Origin: a virus
IMG/VR virus record: IMGVR_UViG_3300008450_000362
Span: 1-27,580 of that record
Strand: one strand, 5' to 3'
DNA: 27,580 nucleotides
Part shown: positions 764-7,728 of the stretch, piece after piece
Layout of the letters: the number at the start of each line of letters is the position of its first letter
Numbering within the stretch: position 1 is the first letter of the stretch
Program-made: the position numbers and the translations under genes
Notes under the pieces: model-generated
What the model was told of the DNA's origin: nothing
Databases searched by the model: none
What the model saw: only the letters and a program-made list of their open reading frames with translations

Positions 764-971
764 CTTTTTCCTTTTTTATTGATGTGTAGGTGAGTGCCCG
801 ACCCTTGCGGCCGCGGACTTCAACCAGGCCGTGCTGGTGTAGGTCGGACATGTAATTGCGGACAGTGGCGGTGCAGACCATGAAGCGCTCGGCGATCTCC
901 TGCTGCGTCTTTGGCTTGACGCTCTGCAGCCAGGCCACAATGCGCAGCTGGCGGTCGCTCAACTTCTTCAC
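678..971 (-). CDS. Winged helix-turn-helix DNA-binding protein, 97 aa
   Basis: Residues 1-66 look like a winged helix: KLSDRQLRIVAWLQ (helix 1), TQQEIAERFMVCTATVRNYM (helices 2-3, with TATVRNYM as recognition helix), then GLVEVRGRKGRALTYT as the wing. The layout resembles MarR/LexA-N or replication-terminator type wHTH proteins, so a regulatory or replication-accessory DNA-binding role is likely. The start is GTG at 971, overlapping the exonuclease stop (GTGA). The last 30 residues overlap the next gene in another frame and look less conserved. An A AAA AAG heptamer (771-777 on the complement) lies in frame near the end, but a -1 shift would only add a short tail. Confidence 0.7.
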   Translation of the reverse strand: MKKLSDRQLRIVAWLQSVKPKTQQEIAERFMVCTATVRNYMSDLHQHGLVEVRGRKGRALTYTSIKKEKDAIRTDAPRNQSSHQVCPRGNDPVRVRE

Positions 972-2107
972 TTGAGCGCCTCCAGCGCCTTCAGGTCGAA
1001 CTTCTTCTGCACCTTCTTGCTGGTGGGCTTGACGACCAGGTCCTCCGGCTTGGTGCAGATCTCATCGAGGCCGTCCAGGGCCGACTTGACGATCGTTGCG
1101 CCAAACTCCTGCTTGATCGCATCGACCATGCTGTCGGCCACAAACTGCGGCAGGGCCGCGGCGAGCTCGGCGCTCGAGTAGTGGCCAGGACCATTGCGGA
1201 ACGTCTTGCCGCTGTGCTTGTGCCGGTACTCGACGAAGTTCTCGCCACCGTCGACAGGCTCAGCGAAGGGCACCAGGGCCGGGATCAGCAAGTGATCCTG
1301 GCACCCGGCACGCTGCGCCTGGCTGTCGATCGCCTTGCTGTGCTGGCCACAATGCCATGCGCCATTCTCAACGGGCGAGGCATGGCAACAGGTGCGGCAG
1401 TTCATGTCGGCCACCCGCTCGCCGTGGCACAGAGCGTGAAATGAGCACATCTTGCAGACCCAGTGCGCTGGGTCCTCAGACACCCGCTGGGGCGGCTCAG
1501 TGGCGTCGATGATGGCCTGGGCCCGGCGCATCAGCACGTCGAAGTCGGTCTGGTCGAACTTGACCCACTCGCTGTAGATGTCGTCCGTCTCTTTACACAC
1601 GGCCAGGTAGAGCGCACGCTCGACGCCCATCAGGCCCATGTAGAGGGTCATCTGGGCGTAGTGCTGGGGCTTGGCGCCGTCGACGCCCTTGGCCTTGAGC
1701 TCAGCAAAGCTGCGGGTGTTGTGCGTCTTGCACTCAAGCACGGCCCAGCTCTTGGGCGCCTCGGGGAACCCGCAGCCCATGCCGTCCAGGCTGCCGCCCA
1801 GGTGGCCATTGCAGCCGCTTACGCGGAGCTGGTCACCCGTGGTGGGGTCGACATCGTAGAGCTCGATGCCAAGCGCCTTGATCTCCTCGATGAGCCGGAT
1901 CTCCTCGCGCCTGCCCGTGTCGAACAGGCGCAGCATCCGGCCATCAAAGTCGGGCTTTTTCGCCCAGCGCCAGTGCAGCCAGACGTTGCGATCGCACCCG
2001 TGGCCCAGGATCGAGCAGCCCAGGTGGTCGCGGTGATCCTGGGGCTGCTTGCCGTGCCACTGGATGATGGCCTGGGCAGTCGTGTGCTGGCTCTCAGGCA
2101 GCAGCAT
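968..2107 (-). CDS. Cas4/AddB-type iron-sulphur PD-(D/E)XK exonuclease, 379 aa
   Basis: The nuclease core is visible: GGSLDGMG supplies Asp108 and AVLECKTH supplies Glu125 and Lys127, the PD-(D/E)XK triad. Cys38 (in GHGCDRNVWLHWRWA) plus Cys218, Cys221 and Cys227 (C-x2-C-x5-C) match the N-terminal-one, C-terminal-three cysteine pattern that holds a 4Fe-4S cluster in AddB and Cas4 nucleases. A second cysteine cluster (CRTCCHAS...WHC) follows. Family knowledge: such enzymes process DNA ends to make single strands. Here it follows the Sak4-like and DUF669 genes and probably supplies ssDNA for annealing. ATG at 2107 overlaps the DUF669 stop by 4 bp (ATGA). There are no CRISPR genes nearby, so it is not an adaptation Cas4. 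The C-terminal third (290-379) is of unclear function. Confidence 0.82.
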   Translation of the reverse strand: MLLPESQHTTAQAIIQWHGKQPQDHRDHLGCSILGHGCDRNVWLHWRWAKKPDFDGRMLRLFDTGRREEIRLIEEIKALGIELYDVDPTTGDQLRVSGCNGHLGGSLDGMGCGFPEAPKSWAVLECKTHNTRSFAELKAKGVDGAKPQHYAQMTLYMGLMGVERALYLAVCKETDDIYSEWVKFDQTDFDVLMRRAQAIIDATEPPQRVSEDPAHWVCKMCSFHALCHGERVADMNCRTCCHASPVENGAWHCGQHSKAIDSQAQRAGCQDHLLIPALVPFAEPVDGGENFVEYRHKHSGKTFRNGPGHYSSAELAAALPQFVADSMVDAIKQEFGATIVKSALDGLDEICTKPEDLVVKPTSKKVQKKFDLKALEALK

Positions 2108-2574
2108 CAGCGCTTCTCCCAGGGCTTTGCAGACGCTTTGGGTGTAGCGCTAGGCGCTACAGCGGCCGGCTTGCTGACCATGCCCTCGAGCTTGCTGTAG
2201 CCCATGACGCGGTTGCGCTCAGGGTCCTTTTTATCAATGCCGACATCGATGCCCAGAGGGATGTCGTGCAGCTGCTCGGTGTCGCTGAGCTTGTCGACGC
2301 CGCAGGCAAAGCAAAGCGCGGCGAGCTCACTGCGGCCAATGTCCTCAGCCTGCTTGTTGGGGTTGCTGACGTTAATGTTCTGCCAGACGCGGCGGTTGGC
2401 GAACTCGCCCTCGATGATCTGAAACGTGACGGCGATGTATTGGCCGTCGCCCTTCTGGGTCGTCTTGACATCAGAGTCCATGACGACGGCTGTGTAGTGG
2501 CCCTTGGGCAGGGGGCCGTAAGACGTGGGTGCGGCGGGGGTGACTTGCGTTGCGTCGAAGTTAAAGCCAGGCAT
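2107..2574 (-). CDS. DUF669 family protein, possible ssDNA-binding partner, 155 aa
   Basis: The start at 2574 is fixed by AAAGGAG eight nt upstream; a longer in-frame reading would run into the Sak4-like gene. The product begins MPGFNFDATQV and contains LPKGHYTAVV, GQYIAVTFQIIEG, NRRVWQNINVSN and GRSELAALCFACG, which are the hallmarks of phage DUF669 proteins: a beta-rich core followed by a Pro/Ala-rich tail ending KPWEKR. The function of DUF669 is not established. Such genes sit next to Sak4-like ATPases, and Sak4 annealing is known to be stimulated by a cognate SSB, so an SSB-like role is a reasonable inference. Cytoplasmic, in the leftward early operon. Confidence 0.75.
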   Translation of the reverse strand: MPGFNFDATQVTPAAPTSYGPLPKGHYTAVVMDSDVKTTQKGDGQYIAVTFQIIEGEFANRRVWQNINVSNPNKQAEDIGRSELAALCFACGVDKLSDTEQLHDIPLGIDVGIDKKDPERNRVMGYSKLEGMVSKPAAVAPSATPKASAKPWEKR

Positions 2575-2593
2575 TGATTGCTCCTTTGGTTGG

Positions 2594-3325
2594 TTATGCT
2601 GCGAGGCCTGCAGCGAAGGCTTCCCATGACAGGGGAATCGAGTCGGCGAGGCTGTAGCGATTCTTGGCCTGGTAGGCCGGCCTCTCTGACGTAAACAGCA
2701 GGCGCTCGCCGGTGCTGACACCGCGGGCGACTGTCTTGTTAAATCCGACGTCGTCCTTGCGTACGATCGTCTTGTAGTTCGCAAACAGGACCGCGTCAGC
2801 CCACTCGCGCACCAGGGCGCTGGCACGCTCCTGCAGCTTGAGCTGGTAGCGGTCGTAGGGCTCTGTCTCTGGGGAGTCAAAGCGCTTGATCTGGCAGTGC
2901 GCGATCAGCACGACGGCCATGCTCTTGTCATTGCGTAAGGCGTTAAGGCCGGCCAGGATCTCGCGCCAGCGCTCTGCAGCGATCACGGCGCCCTTGCCGT
3001 AGGCCAGGTCCTTGGCGTCATACTTCGACTCGATCTCTTTCCAGATTAGGTTGTCAAGCCAGTCCAGGCTATCGAGTACGACGGTGCCGAATTCATGCGA
3101 CTCCTGGTAGAGGGTGCCGATGGCCTCCATCACCTCGGCCGTGCTGGTGGCCAGCGGAAAGTGATCGACAGCGAGGGAGCCCAGGCCGTCCTCAGTGCAG
3201 ATGAAGATCGGGCTGGGGGCGCCGGCTGCAAAGGTGGACTTGCCGATGCCCTCGACGCCGTAGACGACAACGCGGGGCGCAGCGATGGCGTCATTACGCC
3301 GGATTGATTTGAGATTGAATGCCAT
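2594..3325 (-). CDS. Sak4-like RecA-fold ATPase, single-strand annealing protein, 243 aa
   Basis: Residues 18-31 read RVVVYGVEGIGKST, a Walker A motif (G23-T31), and FGTVVLDSLDWL carries the Walker B Asp85. A polar strand (MAVVLIAHCQIKRF) follows, as in the AAA_24/Sak4 group of remote RecA homologues in phages. Family knowledge: Sak4 anneals single strands with help from an SSB and promotes phage recombination. Placement ahead of DUF669, an exonuclease and a RuvC-like resolvase completes a recombination module. Start ATG at 3325 is the first Met of the conserved MAFNLKSIRR opening. There is a 19-bp gap to DUF669. It could equally be annotated simply as AAA ATPase; the annealing role is by homology. 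Confidence 0.82.
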   Translation of the reverse strand: MAFNLKSIRRNDAIAAPRVVVYGVEGIGKSTFAAGAPSPIFICTEDGLGSLAVDHFPLATSTAEVMEAIGTLYQESHEFGTVVLDSLDWLDNLIWKEIESKYDAKDLAYGKGAVIAAERWREILAGLNALRNDKSMAVVLIAHCQIKRFDSPETEPYDRYQLKLQERASALVREWADAVLFANYKTIVRKDDVGFNKTVARGVSTGERLLFTSERPAYQAKNRYSLADSIPLSWEAFAAGLAA

Positions 3326-3338
3326 GTGGTGCGGTCCT

Positions 3339-3719
3339 TTAGGGTTGTAGTTCGATGGTCACGCCAGTCTTGGCCGGCTTGACGGTGACGGCGGCAGCAA
3401 TCTGCTGCCAGAGGTCGGGGCGCGTGGCGCGGATCTTCTTAAGCGCTGTCTCGTCGGCTTTGGTTTCGACCTTGATTGGCTTGGCCTCGTCGGGCCAGGC
3501 CATGACGAGCTTCTGCAGGGCGTCCACGTTGACCTTGTAAGACAGCTTCCCGGTGGTGGTGATGACTAGGCCGGAGGGGAGGTGCGTGGTGCAGCTGCCT
3601 TCCTCCCTGACGTCAATCAGAGCGCAGAGCTCTTCCTCGATGCGAATGCGCTTGGCGTTGGCTTCCTGCTCCTCGCGCTTCGCGGCGAGCCAAAGGTTCG
3701 CCAGTTCGTTCACGTTCAT
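3339..3719 (-). CDS. Conserved phage protein, 126 aa, unknown function
   Basis: The protein begins MNVNELANLWLAAKREEQEANAKRIRIEEEL, a charged helix, then a beta segment LVITTTGKLSYKVNV, and ends with TKADETALKKIRATRPDLW and VKPAKTGVTIELQP. This order (helix, KLSYKVD-like strand, KADE...RPDLW, PAKTGV) recurs in phages directly upstream of Sak4-like genes, so a DNA metabolism accessory role is plausible but unproven. AGGAG precedes the ATG by about 7 nt. It lies 13 bp upstream of the Sak4-like gene. No catalytic motif is visible. Confidence 0.7.
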   Translation of the reverse strand: MNVNELANLWLAAKREEQEANAKRIRIEEELCALIDVREEGSCTTHLPSGLVITTTGKLSYKVNVDALQKLVMAWPDEAKPIKVETKADETALKKIRATRPDLWQQIAAAVTVKPAKTGVTIELQP

Positions 3720-4693: not shown

Positions 4694-4948
4694 ATGTCCA
4701 AAGCCGGTCACCCCCAAATAAATTGTGAAAAGCCCGCCGCTGACGTTGCAGCGGCCTTCGGTGGCACCAGGCGCCTATCCCAGGTCGCTGGTGTCGACGC
4801 CTCTACTGTCAGTCGGTGGTGCGCACCGGTCGAGAAGGGGGGGACAGGGGGCAACATCCCCCAGCGCTACTGGCCGAAGATTCTGCGGGCAGCGAAAGCA
4901 AATGATTTGAGCATTGACATTCACAAACTGTCAGGGATCACCTTATGA
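4694..4948 (+). CDS. Cro-like helix-turn-helix regulator, 84 aa
   Basis: Residues 16-43 (DVAAAFGGTRRLSQVAG, then DASTVSRWC) form a helix-turn-helix of the kind seen in small phage Cro/CII-like proteins, followed by GGNIPQRYWPKILRAAKAN, a tail typical of phage Cro-like regulators in proteobacteria. It probably opposes the repressor at the shared operator after induction. It is the first gene from PR and overlaps the next ORF by 4 bp (ATGA). The ribosome site is weak (GGAG 13 nt upstream). A run of G at 4837-4843 followed by ACAGGGGG resembles the GGGGACA repeats further right, probably by chance. Confidence 0.8.
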   Translation: MSKAGHPQINCEKPAADVAAAFGGTRRLSQVAGVDASTVSRWCAPVEKGGTGGNIPQRYWPKILRAAKANDLSIDIHKLSGITL

Positions 4949-5091
4949 ATAATGTGTACAAATTAGAGGAATCTGACTTCCCGCTGACGAGTGACGGCGT
5001 TTGGCCATTTCCGTCGGAAAATAAACTGCCTGACACGCAGCCGAAGACTCTGCAGGAGAGCCTCGACTCGCTCCCTGACGCGCCGTTCTAA
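4945..5091 (+). CDS. Small acidic protein with SSB-tip-like end, 48 aa
   Basis: The ORF is coupled on both sides: its ATG overlaps the Cro stop (ATGA) and its TAA overlaps the helicase ATG (TAATG). The product MNNVYKLEESDFPLTSDG.. is acidic (9 Asp/Glu against 3 Lys) and ends ESLDSLPDAPF. That ending resembles the acidic C-terminal tip of bacterial SSB proteins (consensus near DDDIPF), which docks replication and repair enzymes. There is no OB fold, so it is not itself an SSB. Its position just before the primase-helicase gene would suit a replication adaptor or SSB-tip mimic. This is an inference; chance resemblance is possible. Confidence 0.6.
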   Translation: MNNVYKLEESDFPLTSDGVWPFPSENKLPDTQPKTLQESLDSLPDAPF

Positions 5092-7097
5092 TGATGACGG
5101 GCCCACGCGACTCTGCTGGAACGCCCCAGCAGAAGGGAGAGCATCCCCCTGGAAGTCTGCTCGACTATGCGCAGCGCTACATCGCGGCCGGCTGGGCCGT
5201 GCTGCCGCTGCATGGCATACAGGGTGGCCGATGCACATGCGGCAAGGCTGACTGCAAGTCACCAGGCAAGCACCCGCGGCTAGTGCTGCCGCACTTTGAG
5301 CAGGGCGTGCTCGATGCAACGACAGACCTCGAGGCCTTTGCAGAGGCAGTCGACTTGTTTCCTCAGTCCAACATCGGAATCAGGCCGCCTACATCTGTGA
5401 TGGTCATTGATGTAGATCCCCGCAACGGTGGCGTTGACACGCTTGACATGCTAGAGAGCCAGCACGGCCAGCTGCCGCAGACGGTGGAGCAGATCACTGG
5501 CTCTGGCGGCCGGCACATTGTTCTGCAGATCCCGCCAGGCACAGAGCCACCCGGCAAGCTGGGCGCAGGCCTTGACATCAAGACGCACTCGGGCTGCATC
5601 GTGGCCGAGCCGTCGATGCACGTCAGTGGCGAGGCGTACGGCTGGGAGGCATCGAGCTCGCTCATTGATGGCGTGGCCATCATGCCGGCACCCCGGTGGG
5701 CCGTGCGAGCTGCTGCCAAGGCTGAGCAGCCCGTGGCCAGCGTGAGCACGATCGTGCTGGATCCTGGCACGCTCGCGGACCTGGCTAGCGCGCTCAAGGC
5801 GATCGACGCCGACGACAGAGATAATTGGGTGCGCGTGGGTCACGCATTGCGCCAGCTGGGCAATGACGGCCGCAGGCTGTGGGACGAGTGGAGCCAGCAG
5901 AGCCCGAAGTTCGACCAGGCTGACCAGGACGCCAAGTGGAAGTCGTTCCGGCCGACAGAGATTGGCCACCGCACCGTGTTCCACATGGCCAGGGAGGCTG
6001 GCTGGACCGGGCGCGAGCTGATGATCCCAGCGCCTGCGGTGCCCGCGTCTGGCCTGCTGCTGTCTCTGCATGAGCTCACGCTGCAGGCGGCTGCCATCAA
6101 GTGGCAGGTCAAGCACGCGATCCCCGACGACGCGATCGGCATGTACTTCGGCGCTTCTGGCACGTTCAAGTCCTTCATCGCGCTCGACCACGCGCTGCAC
6201 GTTGCGCATGGCCTGCCGTGGATGGGCCGTAAGACAGTGGCCGGGCGCGTCGTCTACGTCGCTGCTGAGGGCGGTGCTGGTATCGCCCGCCGGGTCCACG
6301 CCTGGCACCTGCAGCACGGGAGAGAGCAGGCCACGAACTTCCACGTCTGTATCACGCCCCTTATATTGAGCTTATCTCAACAAGTGGAGATGCTGGCAAC
6401 AGCGATCGCCGAGCTTGAGACGCCACCGCGGCTGGTGGTGATCGACACGCTGTCCCAGACCTTCGCCGGCGATGAGAACAGCGCGACAGACATGGCCGCC
6501 TACCTGCGGCTGCTCAACGCCAGCATTCGCTCGCGGTTCGGCTGCACTGTCATCGTCATCCACCACAGCGGCCACGCAGCTGCGGAGCGGCCGCGGGGCT
6601 CCAGCGCCATCCTGGCAAACGTCGACTTTATGTTCGGCGTCTACCGCACCGACCCCGATGCGCTCTCCTGCCACGTCGAGGTAGTCAAGCAAAAGGACGG
6701 CGACAAGATCCCTTCGCAGCTCTTCGAGATGCAGCGCCACGTCGTGGGGGCTGATGAGGATGGCGAGGAGGTGGCCAGCCTGGTGGCCTGCTGGCACGAC
6801 ATGGTCGGGGCCGTAGTGGCCACGGCCGGCGCCAGGCTCTCAGCACATGAGCAGGCAATCCTGGGGGCGTTCGGTGGCCAGGCTGAGTGCTATGAGTCGA
6901 CCATGCGCAGTGCGCTATATGAGGCGATGGCTGACGCGAAACCGGACACGAAGAAGAAGGCTTTCAAGCGGTCAATGGAGAGCCTGGTGCGCAAGCACCT
7001 GATCGAGCACACAGCTCACGGGGTCTGGGGACGTGTTCTAGGGGGACAAAAGGGGACAGTCCCCCAGGGGACACATGTCCCCCAGGAGTGCATCTGA
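5091..7097 (+). CDS. Primase-polymerase fused to RepA-type helicase, 668 aa
   Basis: Residues 22-215 are a bifunctional primase/polymerase (Prim-Pol) domain: GWAVLPL, a metal-binding-like CTCGKADC..PGKHP (48-62), NIGIRP, VIDVDPRNGG with catalytic Asp107 and Asp109, TGSGGRH with His142, and GLDIKTHSG. Residues about 230-300 (IDADDRDNWVRVGHALRQLG...W) look like a PriCT-type linker domain. From 345 on is a RecA-fold helicase: Walker A GASGTFKS (354-361), VVYVAAEGG, Walker B VVIDTLSQT (Asp452), and VIVIHHSGH. It should prime and unwind phage DNA at the origin. The start is the first of two ATGs at 5091, overlapping the preceding stop. The last codons run into the GGGGACA repeats, so part of the repeat cluster is coding. 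Confidence 0.88.
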   Translation: MMTGPRDSAGTPQQKGEHPPGSLLDYAQRYIAAGWAVLPLHGIQGGRCTCGKADCKSPGKHPRLVLPHFEQGVLDATTDLEAFAEAVDLFPQSNIGIRPPTSVMVIDVDPRNGGVDTLDMLESQHGQLPQTVEQITGSGGRHIVLQIPPGTEPPGKLGAGLDIKTHSGCIVAEPSMHVSGEAYGWEASSSLIDGVAIMPAPRWAVRAAAKAEQPVASVSTIVLDPGTLADLASALKAIDADDRDNWVRVGHALRQLGNDGRRLWDEWSQQSPKFDQADQDAKWKSFRPTEIGHRTVFHMAREAGWTGRELMIPAPAVPASGLLLSLHELTLQAAAIKWQVKHAIPDDAIGMYFGASGTFKSFIALDHALHVAHGLPWMGRKTVAGRVVYVAAEGGAGIARRVHAWHLQHGREQATNFHVCITPLILSLSQQVEMLATAIAELETPPRLVVIDTLSQTFAGDENSATDMAAYLRLLNASIRSRFGCTVIVIHHSGHAAAERPRGSSAILANVDFMFGVYRTDPDALSCHVEVVKQKDGDKIPSQLFEMQRHVVGADEDGEEVASLVACWHDMVGAVVATAGARLSAHEQAILGAFGGQAECYESTMRSALYEAMADAKPDTKKKAFKRSMESLVRKHLIEHTAHGVWGRVLGGQKGTVPQGTHVPQECI

Positions 7098-7167
7098 GGG
7101 CGGTTTAGGGGGACAAAAGGGGACACACCCTATAAGGGTGTCCCCATGTCCCCCCCCAGATGTCCCC
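7027..7167. repeat. GGGGACA direct and inverted repeat cluster
   Basis: GGGGACA occurs at 7042-7048, 7052-7058, 7067-7073, 7109-7115 and 7119-7125. Its complement TGTCCCC occurs at 7076-7082, 7139-7145, 7147-7153 and 7161-7167. A variant GGGGACG is at 7027. A 20-bp unit TAGGGGGACAAAAGGGGACA is present twice (7039-7058 and 7106-7125), 67 bp apart. Two units form inverted repeats: 7067-7082 (2-bp centre) and 7119-7145 (loop TATAA, stem with a 2-nt bulge). The cluster lies between the helicase and terminase genes, so an origin of replication or a terminase recognition (cos/pac) site are both possible. Confidence 0.8.
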
Positions 7168-7174
7168 GTCCGGG

Positions 7175-7203
7175 TTGTGAATGACGCAATAGTGTGATGG
7201 AAT
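7175..7203 (+). promoter_or_regulatory. Late promoter ahead of the small terminase gene
   Basis: TTGTGA (7175-7180), 17-bp spacer, TGGAAT (7198-7203) with an upstream TG (7195-7196), followed by CGCAAC and then the ATG at 7210. The expected start of transcription falls at or within 1-2 nt of the ATG, so the mRNA may be leaderless. No strong Shine-Dalgarno is seen. Confidence 0.5.
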
Positions 7204-7209
7204 CGCAAC

Positions 7210-7728
7210 ATGCAGACAGACATGAGTCAAACGCTTAAAGAAACCGCCTCAAAAGCCCCTGGAGGGCCTGGGAGGGGTCGGGGGAAGGTCAAGCCCCCGC
7301 CGCCGGGCCCCGGCCGCCCCAAGGGCTCGCAGAACCGCGTCACGACTACCATCAAAGCAGCCACGCTCGAGGCCTTCGAGCGCCTGGGGGGCGTCGACTG
7401 GCTGGTGCGCATGGGCGAAGGCACCACGGACGATCGGCGGGCCTTCATGGCCCTGCTCGCCCGCATCCTCCCTGCCGAGATCAATGCCAACGTCAGCGGC
7501 GGCATCCAGATCCAGCTCGGCTGGCTGTCCGGCCGGCAGATTGGCACAGTTACGGCACAGCAGCAGGCAAGGCAGCTGCAAGTCATTGATGTAGAAGTCA
7601 ATTCAGACGGGGTAAACCGGATTACCGATCAGCGCACCGTCGACCTGCCCCCTCCAGACCCAGGCGGGGCGGGGCTCGAGGCCGCGGCCGACCCCCCATC
7701 CCCCCCAAAAGCCGGGGCGGGGGGCTAG
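7210..7728 (+). CDS. Probable terminase small subunit, 172 aa
   Basis: After a Gly/Pro-rich N-terminus with AT-hook-like GRGRGK and PGRPKGSQN segments (residues 22-43), residues about 44-90 (TTTIKAATLEAFERLGG...RAFMALLARILP) form the helical core that recurs in phage small terminase candidates (GRPKGS-N..., G-x-D..L, AF..LL.R.LP). The tail is Pro/Ala-rich. Family expectation: it binds the packaging site and feeds the large terminase. It precedes DUF3310 and the large subunit. Starts at 7210 or 7222 are both possible; 7210 abuts the putative promoter. Assignment rests on weak motif resemblance and position. Confidence 0.6.
   Translation: MQTDMSQTLKETASKAPGGPGRGRGKVKPPPPGPGRPKGSQNRVTTTIKAATLEAFERLGGVDWLVRMGEGTTDDRRAFMALLARILPAEINANVSGGIQIQLGWLSGRQIGTVTAQQQARQLQVIDVEVNSDGVNRITDQRTVDLPPPDPGGAGLEAAADPPSPPKAGAGG

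Follow-up and report, generated by a model that had tools for sequence, protein, structure and literature searches.

We describe here a cluster of short direct and inverted repeats at the 3' end of a phage primase-helicase gene, which is very probably the replication origin of the phage, read by its own helicase. The cluster lies in a viral stretch of 27,580 nucleotides (IMG/VR record IMGVR_UViG_3300008450_000362), the whole of which is referred to below as the window. A first-pass annotation had interpreted it as either an origin or a packaging site. The origin part of that claim is upheld by the anchoring of such arrays at helicase 3' ends, by a conserved anatomy that includes a hairpin, and by covariation between the repeated word and a winged helix in the helicase, whereas the packaging part found no support.

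The copies described in that annotation are all present: five GGGGACA and four TGTCCCC, nine in total, were located as exact matches within 126 bp (7042-7167), and the 20-bp unit TAGGGGGACAAAAGGGGACA is indeed duplicated exactly, at 7039-7058 and 7106-7125; one-mismatch copies were located in addition at 7027 and 7058. When the whole window was scanned, a lone copy at 4840 was the only one outside the array. When the window was shuffled 300 times with its dinucleotides preserved, GGGGACA reached at most two copies per 126 bp, against the nine observed, and no 7-mer of any kind exceeded four per 126 bp in 60 shuffles. Relative to the helicase stop (7097) the array reaches from -55 to +70. Its first part overlaps the final 19 helicase codons, and the remainder after 7097 is non-coding until an ORF begins at 7210. 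The elements are as follows.

7027-7033, plus strand: degenerate iteron GGGGACG, one mismatch
7039-7058, plus strand: 20-bp unit, copy 1
7042-7048, plus strand: iteron 1, GGGGACA, within the 3' codons of the helicase
7052-7058, plus strand: iteron 2, GGGGACA
7067-7073, plus strand: iteron 3, GGGGACA
7076-7082, minus strand: iteron 4, TGTCCCC, convergent with iteron 3
7106-7125, plus strand: 20-bp unit, copy 2
7109-7115, plus strand: iteron 5, GGGGACA
7119-7125, plus strand: iteron 6, GGGGACA, left of the hairpin
7125-7141, no strand: hairpin ACACCC-TATAA-GGGTGT between convergent iterons, a candidate opening or priming structure (fold energy, apex scan)
7139-7145, minus strand: iteron 7, TGTCCCC, right of the hairpin
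7147-7153, minus strand: iteron 8, TGTCCCC
7161-7167, minus strand: iteron 9, TGTCCCC
7175-7249, no strand: AT-richer stretch adjoining the array, 54-56% AT (base composition)

The last of these is a weak candidate for an unwinding element. No convincing DnaA box was found, the one site at 7176 having a single mismatch. GC skew, whose inversion had been put forward as a sign of an origin, does not flip at the array in the window and, like the DnaA boxes, was uninformative.

The gene that ends in the array encodes a primase and a helicase in a single polypeptide, to which the following two features belong.

5091-7097, plus strand: primase-helicase, 668 aa (Pfam, AlphaFold and PDB matches)
6837-7034, plus strand: segment coding for the C-terminal winged helix, about residues 583-648, the proposed iteron reader (AlphaFold, structural matches)

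Pfam recognises a Prim-Pol domain at residues 27-203 (E 1e-31), a PriCT_2 domain at 233-300 (E 4e-18) and an AAA_25 domain, a helicase of the RepA/RecA type, at 333-497 (E 1e-36). AlphaFold predicts the RecA core with pLDDT mostly above 90, and its best fold match in the PDB is the RepA helicase of RSF1010 (1olo, 1g8y and 1nlf; Foldseek), which is also the best PDB match by sequence (phmmer, E 8e-9). The C-terminal domain is predicted as helix-helix-strand-helix-helix-wing with pLDDT 79-95; searched alone, this piece matches winged helices at Z 8-10, the fold being a common one. The tail of the protein, GGQKGTVPQGTHVPQECI, is predicted to be disordered (pLDDT below 50 for residues 651-668) and overlaps the array, so that it is probably a by-product of the repeats.

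A small Cro/CII-like regulator on the plus strand precedes the primase-helicase, and the array is followed by a 172-aa ORF without assignment (7210-7728), DUF3310, a large terminase and a portal. Upstream, on the minus strand, 968-3719 comprises a recombination module with a Cas4-like exonuclease, a Sak4-like annealing ATPase and DUF7173. The gene order Sak4, regulator, primase-helicase is common to the window, Salicola phage CGphi29 and Idiomarinaceae phage 1N2-2.

To obtain unbiased sets, relatives were retrieved by helicase protein similarity alone. For profile scanning a closer set was used in place of 14 aligned sequences whose divergence was too great, and a search of the genome collection yielded three relatives. 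Of 112 protein-selected loci, 47 have a 6-mer that occurs six times or more within 230 bp at the helicase 3' end, compared with 14 of 1676 background windows (0.8%) from the same loci; the loci are partly redundant. The array comes straight after the helicase stop in L002-L008, L133-L142, L179 and, with many different words, in the L211-L249 set, and is present in the named phages CGphi29, PB15, 1N2-2 and CRP-831 as well as at the plasmid locus L255. Over some 300 bp around the helicase stop no array was found in L143-L178, L180-L195 and L203, nor at the RepA-type helicase loci of Caulobacter phage GB2A, L210, L251, BFK20 and L254. The primase heads of array-bearing helicases differ (Prim-Pol with PriCT_1 or PriCT_2, Toprim, or none recognised), which argues that the array is independent of primase type. 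The gene after the array also varies, encoding a PAPS reductase, a VRR-NUC-like endonuclease, a Holliday-junction resolvase, a RusA-like protein, a regulator or an ORF without assignment.

Some loci depart from the usual position. In L178 (5437-5606) and L159 (6346-6470) the 3' end of the helicase is bare, and a similar array with a hairpin is found 2.2-2.6 kb further downstream; in this branch the origin and its gene seem to have become separated. The iterons of L024 (4752-4881), L048, L061, L064 and L081 lie within the helicase coding tail, 128-257 bp before the stop, and a low-complexity protein tail is the result. A gene adjoining the origin-bearing helicase of L048 (3454-4218) has matches among transcription-regulator phrogs and phrogs of the BstA type. 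Phage replication is the target of BstA, and this neighbour raised the possibility of a BstA/aba self-immunity element; the described aba, however, has CCCGCC repeats and looks unrelated.

When the helicase 3' ends of relatives were compared, the word was found to differ between loci while the layout, which recurs in many unrelated phages and some plasmids, stays. The words include GGGGACA, TGGGACA, CGGGACA, AGGGGC, TAGGGG, TGGACA, CGGACA, GGTAAC, GGTAGA, CCGAC and TGTTAG. CGGACA is used in L002-L008, and CGGACA or CGGGACA in L133-L142 and L179; the word is GGGGACA in CGphi29, GGTTCA in Alteromonas phage PB15, GGTACA in phage 1N2-2, GTATAA in Roseobacter phage CRP-831 and GCGGCA in L246, a Klebsiella plasmid record (CP018459) which encodes a capsid protein too. 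The conserved order runs from the helicase stop through forward iterons spaced by roughly one turn of the helix, one reversed copy and a gap to two forward iterons, a short hairpin and two reversed iterons. Conserved spacing in related phages, proposed earlier as a check, was indeed observed, with phasing of about 10 bp: for neighbouring iterons of the same direction the distance is usually 8-12 bp, another peak falling at 21 bp, and a convergent pair at 7 bp is recurrent. With arrowheads for iteron direction and numbers for spacing, the window reads >10>15>7< 35 >10>18<8<14< and L090 reads >9>10>10>7<7>21>10>19<9<.

Viral contigs were also scanned for two GGGGACA copies ten bases apart, which gave at least 120 stretches; having been chosen by the motif itself, this set is no measure of frequency. 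Among the stretches listed, more than 50 have at least four GGGGACA within 200 bp, in contigs of 37-74% GC, and in about half of them the cluster coincides with the 3' end of an ORF for a RepA-type helicase or falls slightly within it. The cluster of L097 adjoins a Zn-ribbon/DUF3987 primase-helicase, those of L059 and L112 lie beside other primase or helicase families, and part of the listed clusters have no recognised adjoining replication gene. In L034 (7071-7147) and L114 (1138-1200) the same word is clustered within genes for O-like replication initiators, a different protein class.

In a partial Mantel test on 22 loci, iteron-word distance correlated with C-terminal distance given the RecA core (r 0.58, p 0.0005), as it did in a larger set of 31 loci (r 0.28, p 0.0045); the loci are partly redundant and these p-values overstate independence. 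Core distance given the C-terminal part had no significant link to the word in the same kind of test. Sliding windows of 40 residues gave correlations of 0.02-0.32 in the core and 0.61-0.63 at residues 602-655, which comprise the recognition helix and wing, and 200 equal-size samples of core columns reached at most 0.24. The word tracks the C-terminal winged helix and not the RecA core, which makes the helicase the likely reader. From these sequence comparisons we infer that the winged helix binds the iterons.

The spacer between the convergent iterons was examined for structure, using the last convergent pair of each locus as chosen by a fixed rule. In the window the fold energy of the spacer is -3.3 kcal/mol, against -0.2 kcal/mol in shuffled sequence, and 0.5% of the shuffles do as well. 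Across 43 distinct spacers the values are -7.2 vs -2.3 kcal/mol (p 1.5e-9), and 30 of the 43 are individually below 5% of shuffles. Chimeras joining arms from different loci fold at only -3.2 kcal/mol, compared with -7.2 kcal/mol for the real spacers, which indicates that the stem arms co-vary. Of the 61 3' regions with iterons, 28 have a CTWWAG-like apex, a feature found in 1.7% of other windows. On the Polaromonas plasmid pPNAP03 (L256) a long hairpin with a CCCCCTTTAGGGGG apex lies within about 110 bp after the stop of a RepA-type helicase (2520); it is not accompanied by iterons, which gives the impression that only the hairpin was retained.

Several other explanations were weighed against an origin read by the helicase. 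A large terminase is encoded 1-3 kb downstream in the window, L042, L031, L115 and L120, and in one odd case, L062 (2889-2925), genes for a T7-like terminase and an SPP1-like portal flank four tandem GGGGACA copies, and no replication gene was recognised in the DNA retrieved around them. Both observations would suit a pac or cosB-like packaging site recognised by the terminase encoded downstream. We consider such a site highly improbable. The constant neighbour across relatives is the helicase, whereas the following gene varies, and packaging is unsupported because the array stays with the helicase whatever gene comes next; moreover, a plasmid locus carries the array too, and the word follows the helicase C-terminus. 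The ORF at 7210-7728, which had been called a small terminase, does not bear out that assignment: its sole match is phrog_11043, of unknown function, and Pfam returned nothing above cut-off.

It is also very unlikely, if a little less so, that the array is an operator read by the upstream Cro-like regulator or by a host protein and controlling late or replication genes. Convergent iterons do look like dimer sites, and a small regulator lies upstream of the helicase in the window, CGphi29, PB15 and 1N2-2. Yet the arrays sit at gene 3' ends, in the L024 group even within the helicase coding tail, and it is the winged helix of the helicase, rather than the core, with which the word correlates. 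One word spans contigs of 37-74% GC, which renders a shared host factor unlikely. As for the G-quadruplex suggested at first, or a transcription terminator, in the G-rich strand or its transcript, G-runs of four to five and the strong predicted folding of the array region would be in keeping with either, but we find this scarcely credible. Many words lack G-runs, and relatives whose words contain no more than two Gs in a row (CGGACA, GGTAAC, GGTTCA, GTATAA) keep array and anatomy at the same position, leaving a quadruplex unsupported; against a terminator, no T-run follows the hairpin at 7125-7141.

An origin read by the helicase might work in the following manner. The C-terminal winged helix would bind the iterons, and the bound protein would load a single helicase ring or a pair of rings, oriented towards the central hairpin. 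The duplex may then open at or beside the hairpin, so that the fused primase, Prim-Pol in this case, could lay the first primers on the exposed strand for a host polymerase to extend. The least certain step is the role of the hairpin, which may be an opening site or a primase recognition site like ssiA/ssiB of RSF1010; that it is the priming site is conceivable, with the balance slightly against. More tentatively still, we propose a very widespread class of origins in tailed phages and phage-plasmids, in which primase, RepA-type helicase and iteron reader are united in one protein and a fixed iteron-hairpin scaffold carries a 6-7 bp word that is rewritten with the recognition helix.

The origins of most metagenomic phages are not known, and a layout recognisable beside the helicase gene, together with the correspondence between protein and word, renders both origin annotation and the initiator-iteron code directly testable. 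It also hints that phages and phage-plasmids infecting one cell together fall into groups of compatible replication; the one-protein replicon is offered as a study system. If the proposal is true, the iteron word could be read off the amino-acid sequence, origin annotation would extend to phages known from metagenomes, and replication incompatibility groups would be defined by the word that an element uses.

In the literature, most subscription papers being outside the search, we found no description of GGGGACA iterons or of an origin downstream of a phage RepA-type helicase. A similar relation of iterons to gene is seen in SaPI Rep, which recognises, through its C-terminal domain, iterons immediately 3' of the gene that encodes it, and in SCCmec Cch2, whose isolated C-terminal domain binds repeats in vitro (PMC7581432). 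Shared with these are the position of the iterons, which adjoin the helicase 3' end in the window and in 47 of 112 relatives, and a C-terminal domain of putative DNA-binding type, here a predicted winged helix. However, SaPI Rep and Cch2 are helicases without a primase fusion, whereas the window has a RepA/RecA-type motor fused to a primase; Cch2 is a 3'-5' helicase, unlike this motor; and, unlike in either system, the layout here is fixed and includes a hairpin while the word within it varies.

In RSF1010 (IncQ), RepC acts on iterons, RepA is the helicase and RepB' acts on ssi hairpins (PMC4234260; PMC4538821). The window resembles it in having iterons, a RepA-type hexameric helicase and an AEP-type primase; it has a co-varying hairpin as well, whose use in priming is putative. 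RepA, RepB' and RepC are nevertheless separate proteins in RSF1010 and a single fused protein in the window, and there are two ssi sites in the former but one central hairpin between inverted iterons in the latter. The P4 alpha protein unites a Toprim-type primase, a helicase and a winged helix and binds origin repeats (PMC4234260). It is similar in its fusion and in the repeats at its origin, but its Toprim-type primase contrasts with the Prim-Pol of the window. P4 alpha has an SF3 helicase and iterons of the GGTGAACA type. The pRN1 protein ORF904 is a Prim-Pol/helicase/winged-helix protein, and an essential 100-nt stem-loop lies directly downstream of its gene (PMC4234260). With pRN1 ORF904 and the phage BIP-1 origin the window shares Prim-Pol, helicase and winged helix; these systems differ in having an SF3 helicase, no iterons and a large stem-loop in place of a short hairpin between iterons. 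The arrangement in the window is a combination of known parts: one fused protein, a RepA-type motor, iterons and a hairpin.
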